Source: a virus. From it: a stretch of 23,527 nucleotides of DNA. The notes under the pieces are model-generated. The model had not been told where the DNA came from. It was given only the letters and a program-made list of their open reading frames with translations, and ran no database searches. The stretch's first letter is position 1. Each line of letters opens with the position of its first letter. The stretch is taken from the IMG/VR virus record IMGVR_UViG_3300028829_000115, positions 1-23,527 of that record. One strand, written 5' to 3'. This document shows, in pieces, positions 11,665 through 23,111 of this stretch. The position numbers and the translations under genes were made by a program.

Positions 11665-11875
11665 GAGTTTTCTCCTTTAAGAAAGTGCATAAAAGAGCTA
11701 ACGAGGGACACTTCAAGGCTGACAAGGATAGGGTGGGAAGAAGATCCGGCCTAAATTATCAGGTAGTTGAAGGCTAGGGTTAGCCTTTGAAAGAGTGGAG
11801 GAGCCTTATTGCCCCTCTCACCAGTAAGTTTTTTAGCGGTAGTCTCTAAATAGAGAGGCGCTATTTTAGTATTGA
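11665..11875 (-). promoter_or_regulatory. 5' leader of the capsid transcript with three hairpins
   Basis: Between the promoter and the capsid gene is a 211-nt non-coding leader. Read on the minus strand it holds TAGCG/CGCTA enclosing a TCTCT/AGAGA stem (11834-11863), a GC-rich hairpin GUGa-GAGGGGC/GCUCCUC-CAC with one bulge and one GU pair (11795-11821), and a perfect AAGGCTA-ACCC-TAGCCTT hairpin (11770-11787). None is followed by a U-run on this strand, so they are more likely to stabilise or process the message than to stop transcription. Confidence 0.6.
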
Positions 11876-11881
11876 AGTCAC

Positions 11882-11910
11882 ATTATATCAGAGTGAAAAA
11901 CGCTTGTCAA
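11882..11910 (-). promoter_or_regulatory. Consensus sigma70 promoter for the capsid genes
   Basis: On the minus strand TTGACA (11905-11910), 17 nt and TATAAT (11882-11887) match the consensus at all twelve bases, and TG lies at the extended -10 position. It starts 8 nt after the scaffold stop codon. Expected transcription start is near 11875. A near copy lies at 22373-22401. Confidence 0.9.
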
Positions 11911-21907: not shown

Positions 21908-22186
21908 TCACCATTTAACTCTATCAGCCCAGTACGCAGCAGACATCTTGCCCTTTTTAATATTCTTGGAGTGTCTAGCTTTGAAACTGGCTCTTTTCTT
22001 TTTCATCTTATCTGATTCACCGGCTTTAGGCTTACCAGCAGTCTTAGCACCTTGCTCACCAAAACGAATCATCTTAATGGTGTCACCCTCTTTGGCAAGC
22101 ACCGCATGACTTTTCTTAGGGTGATCCGAGGTTCTCTTAGGCTTGTTGTACCCAGAAAACTTCTCTCCACGATACTCGATAGCCAT
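21908..22186 (-). CDS. Small basic conserved phage protein
   Basis: 92 residues, basic. It begins MAIEYRGEKFSGYNKPKRTS and then has HPKKSHAVLAKEGDTIKMIR (22-41) and FGEQGAK. The C-terminal signature KKRASFKARHSKNIKKGKMS (63-82) with AAYWADRVKW is one I recall from cyanophages and other marine phages, where it is annotated only as conserved hypothetical. AAGGGG lies 5 nt before the ATG. It is the first protein gene after the leader and terminator block at 22205-22401, so its expression may depend on read-through of that terminator. Confidence 0.8.
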   Translation of the reverse strand: MAIEYRGEKFSGYNKPKRTSDHPKKSHAVLAKEGDTIKMIRFGEQGAKTAGKPKAGESDKMKKKRASFKARHSKNIKKGKMSAAYWADRVKW

Positions 22187-22204: not shown

Positions 22205-22246
22205 AAAAAAGTAGGGGCAACCCGTTGTATAATCGAAACGCCCCTA
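22205..22246 (-). terminator. Intrinsic terminator ahead of the 92-residue protein gene
   Basis: On the minus strand TAGGGGC (240-246 in the 22 kb block) and GCCCCTA (212-218) form a perfect 7-bp stem with a 21-nt loop, followed by C and six T (22205-22210). The stem is GC-rich at its core and the U-run is good. It sits about 160 nt after the promoter and 18 nt before the next start codon. Confidence 0.75.
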
Positions 22247-22366
22247 TTAATAAATTAACACCAGTTAACCTGTAAGTTTCACCGCAATCACACGAACCAG
22301 AATAGGTTTAGTTGTCTACCCATACCCCGCAAGATAGAGATAAACAACCCACAACGGGTATTTTGA
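22205..22366 (-). ncRNA. Candidate structured small RNA or attenuator leader
   Basis: A promoter matching consensus and a terminator bracket about 160 nt with no credible gene. Read on the minus strand, GUUGUUUAUC (22339-22348) pairs with GGUAGACAAC (22311-22320) in a 10-bp stem with two GU pairs. TTAAC-TGGT-GTTAA forms a small hairpin near 22253-22266. The 5'-end segment ACCCGTTGT (22351-22359) is exactly complementary to ACAACGGGT in the terminator loop (22220-22228). Such a contact could stabilise the folded RNA or control the terminator. Whether it acts as a free RNA or only as a leader is open. Confidence 0.5.
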
Positions 22367-22372
22367 AAACGC

Positions 22373-22401
22373 ATTATATCAGAGCGGAAAAACCTTGTCA
22401 A
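22373..22401 (-). promoter_or_regulatory. Consensus sigma70 promoter overlapping the phoH stop
   Basis: On the minus strand TTGACA (22396-22401), 17 nt and TATAAT (22373-22378) match consensus at all twelve bases, with TG at the extended -10 position. The TGA inside TTGACA is the stop codon of phoH. The flanks match the capsid promoter at 11882-11910 closely. Start is expected near 22366. Confidence 0.9.
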
Positions 22402-23111
22402 GTAAAAAATTTATCTTTTGCTAATAAATAAGACTTGACAAGTCCAGAACGCACAACATCGTCAATATCAAACTGGATCTTACTGAAGTCCTCTTTCATC
22501 TTATCTAGGATCTTCATAAAGTCTAGCAGCCCATGTCTGTCATGGTTCCTAGCTAAATCAGACTGCTTGAAATCACCTGAAAAGATTAGTCGTGTATTCT
22601 CACCAGCCCTAGTGATTACAGAGTCTAACTCGTGAAATGTCAGGTTCTGCATCTCATCAATAAACAATACACAGTTATCGTATGTCTCACCACGTATAAA
22701 TGACGTGGACATAAACTCTACCATGTCCTTACTTTTCAAAATGTCATATGCATCACCACGGCTAAAGATTTCTGCACAGACACTCTTATAAGGTGACTCA
22801 TATTGTTTAATCTTTTCTTTTAAGGTTCCTGGTAAGAAACCTAAATCTCTAGTAGGCACAGCTGATCTGATAATATATAACTTATGAATGTCATTATTAG
22901 TGTCTATAACATCTTTAAGAGCTAAATATAAAGCACAGAATGTTTTACCAGTACCTGCCATTCCATGTAGCACAAGATTTTTATCATTGTTAATATATTC
23001 AGTAAATGTCTTTTCTTGATTATAAGTTAAAGGTACAATGCTTTTAGTGTTGAATAAAGTATTATTACTATTAGTATTACTATTTCTTTTCTTACTTAGC
23101 CGTTTAGGCAT
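22398..23111 (-). CDS. phoH: PhoH-like ATPase
   Basis: 237 residues. After a low-complexity Asn/Lys/Ser N-terminus (1-22), the P-loop is LHGMAGTGKT at 48-57 and Walker B is CVLFIDEMQN at 147-156. Further PhoH patterns are IIRSAVPTRDLGFLPG (80-95), RGETYDNC, and LIFSGDFKQSDL (175-186), which matches sensor-like motif III of superfamily 1-type ATPases. PhoH proteins bind ATP and RNA; they are common in marine phages, where their role is still unclear. The gene is AT-rich compared with the virion genes. GGAG lies 10 nt before the ATG, and a good promoter and GATAC repeats lie just upstream. Confidence 0.88.
   Translation of the reverse strand: MPKRLSKKRNSNTNSNNTLFNTKSIVPLTYNQEKTFTEYINNDKNLVLHGMAGTGKTFCALYLALKDVIDTNNDIHKLYIIRSAVPTRDLGFLPGTLKEKIKQYESPYKSVCAEIFSRGDAYDILKSKDMVEFMSTSFIRGETYDNCVLFIDEMQNLTFHELDSVITRAGENTRLIFSGDFKQSDLARNHDRHGLLDFMKILDKMKEDFSKIQFDIDDVVRSGLVKSYLLAKDKFFT

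Follow-up and report, generated by a model that had tools for sequence, protein, structure and literature searches.

The window, the whole 23,527-nt stretch of viral DNA that was analysed, contains a gene-free stretch of about 160 nt between phoH (22398-23111) and the next open reading frame, as the initial annotation had claimed and the ORF positions bear out. A minus-strand sigma-70 promoter of the form TTGACA-17-TATAAT, with a TG before the -10 element, is found there with the 12/12 score previously assigned to it, and two copies of this exact promoter pattern are present in the window, where 0.02 would be expected. The leader RNA that would start from it comprises two hairpins, P1 and P2, an unpaired GUGAUUGC motif and an intrinsic terminator (Table 1). 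The 10-bp stem recognised earlier (22311-22320 with 22339-22348) is correct and belongs to a 12-bp helix topped by a 5-bp apical hairpin. The terminator does close the unit, with an unusual architecture of a short 7-bp stem, a 21-nt loop and six U residues, and was missed by the consensus scan because this permits loops only up to 8. Nine nucleotides near the 5' end (ACCCGTTGT) are exactly complementary to nine nucleotides in the terminator loop (ACAACGGGT), a match with a chance probability of about 0.0005 given the composition of the tail and loop; the fold z-score of the leader is -2.2, which is modest on its own. No Rfam 15 family scores above its curated gathering cut-off in the window, and at relaxed E-values only chance matches are obtained in the window, L206 and L284. 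Comparison with its homologues indicates that the leader is a real RNA element, previously undescribed.

Table 1. Features of the leader RNA unit and its surroundings in the window, and the long-range helix as found in each lineage (chance: probability of the helix on shuffling the tail and loop)
Feature	Position	Strand	Description
TTTTTTAC element	22402..22409	-	abuts the -35 element upstream; also at the capsid promoter and in relatives
Sigma-70 promoter, extended -10	22373..22401	-	-35 element overlaps the phoH stop codon
Leader RNA	22205..22366	-	start at about 22366 inferred from the -10 element; end is the terminator U-run
Long-range helix, 5' strand ACCCGUUGU	22351..22359	-	
Hairpin P1	22310..22349	-	12-bp stem 22338-22349 with 22310-22321, then a 1x1 internal loop
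P1 apex		-	5-bp apical stem 22332-22336 with 22323-22327; tetraloop UGCG 22328-22331
Hairpin P2	22295..22308	-	AACC 22308-22305 pairs with GGUU 22298-22295
GUGAUUGC motif	22284..22291	-	unpaired, invariant
Intrinsic terminator	22205..22246	-	stem 22240-22246 with 22212-22218; loop 22219-22239; U-run 22210-22205
Long-range helix, 3' strand ACAACGGGU	22220..22228	-	inside the terminator loop
First downstream gene of the module	21908..22186	-	92 aa, phrog_7595 (function unknown); start codon 18 nt past the U-run
Second copy of the leader promoter	11882..11910	-	in front of the major capsid gene; 86% identity across 49 nt
Long-range helix, lineage A			ACCCGUUGU/ACAACGGGU; 9 bp; chance 0.0005
Long-range helix, lineage B			UACCCGU/ACGGGUA; 7 bp; chance 0.008
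Long-range helix, lineages C and D			AACUGC/GCAGUU; 6 bp; chance about 0.08 alone
Long-range helix, lineage E			UACCUACUG/CAGUAGGUA; 9 bp; chance 0.002
Long-range helix, lineage F			UACCUACU/AGUAGGUA; 8 bp, 11 with G-U; chance 0.003

The TTTTTTAC-TTGACA module is common to the capsid and leader RNA promoters and is kept in many relatives (L176-L227). The leader of the major capsid gene (window 11665-11881, minus strand) is also strongly structured, with a z-score of -3.8 and no shuffle as good. It contains blocks conserved across relatives (AACUACCUG, UAGGCCGG, ACCCUA, GUCAGCCUUGAA and GUUAG) and a few compensatory pairs, and appears to be another RNA element, distinct from the first and with no terminator. 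Elsewhere in the window, the 219-aa protein encoded at 21024-21683 matches phrog_3704, labelled as a ferredoxin, with no Pfam match, and this label is doubtful.

The large terminase subunit (TerL) of the window phage shares 55% identity with that of HTVC033P and 42-50% with those of the CRP and HMO-2011 phages, while its capsid protein is 61-62% identical to those of HMO-2011 and CRP-345. This relatedness to cultured members in both terminase and capsid identifies it as an HMO-2011-type phage. Phages of this type are among the dominant marine viruses (PMC9038755). The switching on of their late genes is undescribed in the paper that defined their diversity, where the words 'promoter' and 'noncoding' appear nowhere in the text (PMC9038755). 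In the TerL tree every carrier of the RNA falls into one clade (support 100/99), whose members are uncultured marine phages and whose nearest cultured relative is the pelagiphage HTVC033P, on a long branch. Six rows of this clade are labelled as RNA-free in the tree, of which two (L191 in G014 and L230 in G010) were later found to be carriers, and the others are contigs that start inside or just ahead of the terminase region, so that their label is no valid claim of absence. In the cultured phages CRP-603, CRP-345 and CRP-1 (L269, L268 and L274), the first promoter-like site at the end of the late region seems to share bases with a start codon (TTGACAATG...), which differs from the leader arrangement of the window phage.

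Homologues of the element are found in six lineages (A-F). Within lineage A, one contig (L157) is identical to the window, and in the sister contig L019/L156 the block 22411-22205 is identical over 207 nt between flanks of about 98% identity. Two additional ORFs are present in the sister contig: one of 261 aa, with a weak match to PAPS reductase (20.1 bits against a cut-off of 22.5), separates phoH from the promoter, and one of 117 aa separates the terminator from the 92-aa gene. These ORFs, at 307-1092 and 1328-1681 of L019, exactly flank the RNA block, a place at which genes have come and gone. A blastn search recovered lineage B (L160-162) together with some of lineage C (L206) at about 68% identity, and further members of lineage C (L258, L259 and L266) were picked up by a pattern of the conserved core. 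A covariance model, R1, built from the core alone (P1, P2 and GUGAUUGC, with the long-range helix left out), recovered lineage D, comprising 11 contigs (59.6 bits, rough E-value about 3e-12), among contigs drawn in by a promoter pattern, as well as lineage E (G014; 33.7 bits, rough E-value 4e-7). Lineage F (G010) was found by its promoter, which heads the same packaging module. In lineage C a second 12/12 promoter is located about 177 nt upstream of the leader promoter (L206, 296-324).

The unpaired GUGAUUGC motif is invariant across the homologues. Seven contigs of lineage D carry the RNA with 100% identity; their terL third positions show 93.8% identity, the stretch of 100 nt ahead of the RNA, promoter included, shows 75.5%, and their first gene differs. 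No significant match to R1 is found in ten complete cultured HMO-2011-type genomes, and blastn of five lineage sequences against cultured phages yields no matches or chance matches only. A scan for the exact 9-nt pattern similarly returns only the sister contigs and chance matches, and a promoter pattern built from both window copies gives zero matches. Two Photobacterium matches in the genome-contig search were judged to be due to chance.

Compensatory changes among homologues and the presence of the 5'-end/terminator-loop match in relatives, both set by the initial annotation as tests on which its proposal could fail, are observed. In five core rows, 8 of 21 pairs are changed on both sides, compared to 3.7±1.3 in shuffles. 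When lineages D and E, the long-range helix and the terminator are added (seven rows, alignment A5), two-sided changes affect 18 of 34 pairs against 7.6±1.9 in shuffles, and the covariation score reaches 0.571, while shuffles give 0.187±0.029 and controls with slid partners, in which the signal is abolished, no more than 0.12. None of 500 shuffles equals any of the seven-row measures, in a control that ignores the relatedness of the rows. The proportion of paired cells in the seven-row alignment is 96.6%, counted on rows made gap-free by hand with bulges and linkers removed, a bias that leans towards structure. The rows were hand-edited before counting because MAFFT on the raw sequences misplaced a gap in P1, and lineage F was excluded from the pair counts because its P1 apex is unalignable without gaps. 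The slid controls and the many two-sided changes indicate that hand editing does not account for the signal. Many of the conserved pairs are G-U, and the compensations include U-G/G-U swaps, which are explicable by RNA pairing only. This argues against a DNA-level signal (for packaging or recombination, close to terS) and against a structured 5' untranslated region of the ordinary kind, conserved for reasons other than transcription control. Such a reading is very improbable, the promoter and terminator being kept too, even though the element is located a few genes upstream of the terminase genes and marks boundaries of gene gain and loss.

In every lineage a 5' strand 0-2 nt before P1 has a partner in the terminator loop (Table 1). 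The per-lineage chance values do not amount to six independent tests, since lineages A and B and lineages E and F are related pairs. The helix in lineages D and E is an independent test because R1, which recovered them, does not contain it, and lineage F, found by its promoter, has it also. Each of the six counted positions of the helix is paired in all seven rows, and five of the six are compensated; the added duplex energy in lineages A-D is -15 to -7 kcal/mol, pseudoknot penalty not included. The comparison thus indicates that the pairing between the 5' strand and the terminator loop is real and is kept while the letters change. The compact RNA with a 5' end that pairs with its own terminator loop, as originally proposed, is upheld by covariation in six lineages, while the term 'kissing match' is to be abandoned, as a single-stranded 5' tail pairing with a hairpin loop constitutes a long-range pseudoknot rather than a loop-loop kiss. 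In the predicted folds of some lineages, the 5' strand pairs locally near GUGAUUGC before the terminator has been transcribed.

In every lineage the module leading to terS and terL begins with the unit. The first start codon follows the U-run at a distance of 5-29 nt in 13 representatives of the six lineages, most of which have a Shine-Dalgarno-like purine run before it, and the first gene differs between phages. An intrinsic terminator is thus placed directly upstream of the ribosome-binding site of the first gene, as in leader attenuators in general. A ribosome-mediated attenuator was considered and rejected, as no short ORF with a conserved start and frame, and hence no conserved leader peptide, occurs inside the RNA across the six lineages. 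A leader specific to the first gene was ruled out, homologues of this gene being common in other marine phages, where they occur without the RNA. The gene content around the unit indicates that it is independent of its neighbouring genes, and its fixed position may reflect inheritance, since a single phage clade accounts for all members. In the 10 kb of the window that separate the terminator from the capsid promoter, the best other promoter scores 11/12 and is located inside terL; weaker promoters within the module could serve downstream genes.

The ribosome-binding site beside the terminator, the fixed place at the head of the late module and the independence of gene identity therefore favour a leader that serves the operon as a whole through a conditional terminator, and they lower the likelihood of a stand-alone small RNA. 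We consider it somewhat better than even (a probability of roughly 55%) that the element is a cis-acting leader or attenuator of the late (packaging and structural) operon, with a terminated product that would also be a compact RNA. Host RNA polymerase would start at the near-perfect sigma-70 promoter and produce a leader of 130-165 nt, in which a 5' single strand is followed by the long P1 with its conserved apex, the short P2, GUGAUUGC and the large-loop terminator, the 5' strand pairing with the terminator loop as the covariation shows. Transcription would either stop at the U-run, releasing a compact RNA with its 5' end tied to its own terminator, or read through into the first late gene, whose ribosome-binding site is just past the U-run. 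The P1 apex and GUGAUUGC may be the part recognised by a protein or by RNA polymerase itself, and the helix between the 5' strand and the terminator loop would tune termination, which we infer to be partial and regulated. A classical anti-terminator switch is not evident, because the long-range helix and the terminator stem do not exclude each other.

Both functions offered by the initial annotation, a free RNA or a switch for late-gene read-through, are inferred from the sequence, and the switch fits better, because the unit lies at the start of the packaging module and the first gene begins 5-29 nt past the U-run. The main rival, possible but less probable, is a free small RNA acting in trans: its 5' end would be fastened to the loop of the terminator, which would stabilise it, a host RNA or protein would be the target of GUGAUUGC or the P1 apex, and late read-through would be incidental. 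The promoter and terminator kept in six lineages, the stronger conservation of the RNA than of adjacent coding DNA, the invariance of the unpaired GUGAUUGC and the gain and loss of neighbouring genes are all consistent with such an RNA. The close spacing of the start codon to the U-run in every lineage is, however, typical of a leader, and the window contains no perfect 8-nt antisense target of GUGAUUGC besides the element itself.

A bolder form of the switch is a phage RNA of a new class that would settle read-through into the late genes unaided: the nascent 5' end would pair locally and then capture the emerging terminator loop while the conserved hairpin core binds RNA polymerase. Such a protein-free late switch is unlikely. 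A put-like antiterminator, in which the two-hairpin core would bind the elongating RNA polymerase on emergence and resist the adjacent terminator and then those of the late operon, appears decidedly unlikely. It would agree with the two adjacent hairpins, spanning about 65 nt, that follow a strong phage promoter and precede a terminator, an arrangement shared with HK022 put (PMC9378689). The T7-type RNA polymerase family has no match in the relatives, a result that is uninformative as the control was also silent. Against this reading, it would be odd for a terminator to be conserved only to be overridden every time, put has no need of pairing with a terminator loop, and R1 finds no match in the complete HK022 genome, so that homology to put in sequence or structure is not observed.

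The covariation-supported element, defined in its parts and located at the start of the late module, combines a conserved core with a pseudoknot of an uncommon kind, formed with a terminator loop. Late control in this uncultured clade is now directly testable with a small reporter construct, and the element can serve as a model of how tertiary contacts may influence an intrinsic terminator. It shares with riboswitch-type and protein-controlled leader attenuators the structured leader, the intrinsic terminator and a ribosome-binding site right past the U-run. It differs from them in that a mutually exclusive antiterminator appears to be no part of its fold, and metabolite feedback on one gene is excluded because the downstream gene is not conserved. 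The put RNA of HK022 binds RNA polymerase and suppresses termination without protein factors. It is a promoter-proximal phage leader RNA of about 65-70 nt with two adjacent stem-loops (PMC9378689). Similarly, two stem-loops are found here just past a phage promoter, with P1 and P2 in lineages A-E (P2 is not resolved in lineage F), but they precede a late rather than an early operon and are accompanied by a conserved terminator and the long-range helix. In phage lambda, the strong promoter PR' heads the late genes and makes a short RNA, the 6S RNA, terminated at tR', and late expression consequently needs read-through of this nearby terminator, for which Q acts via a DNA site and a pause. The Q families PF03589 and PF06530 have no match in three relatives and HMO-2011, with positive controls, in a search that leaves other Q-like proteins uncovered and in contigs that may be incomplete. 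Q-dependent late control is among the matters treated in PMC7171158. The sequence of the window locus follows the lambda PR'/tR' order of promoter, short terminated RNA and then late genes; unlike in lambda, the RNA itself is under strong structural selection, with a helix joining its 5' end to the loop of its terminator.
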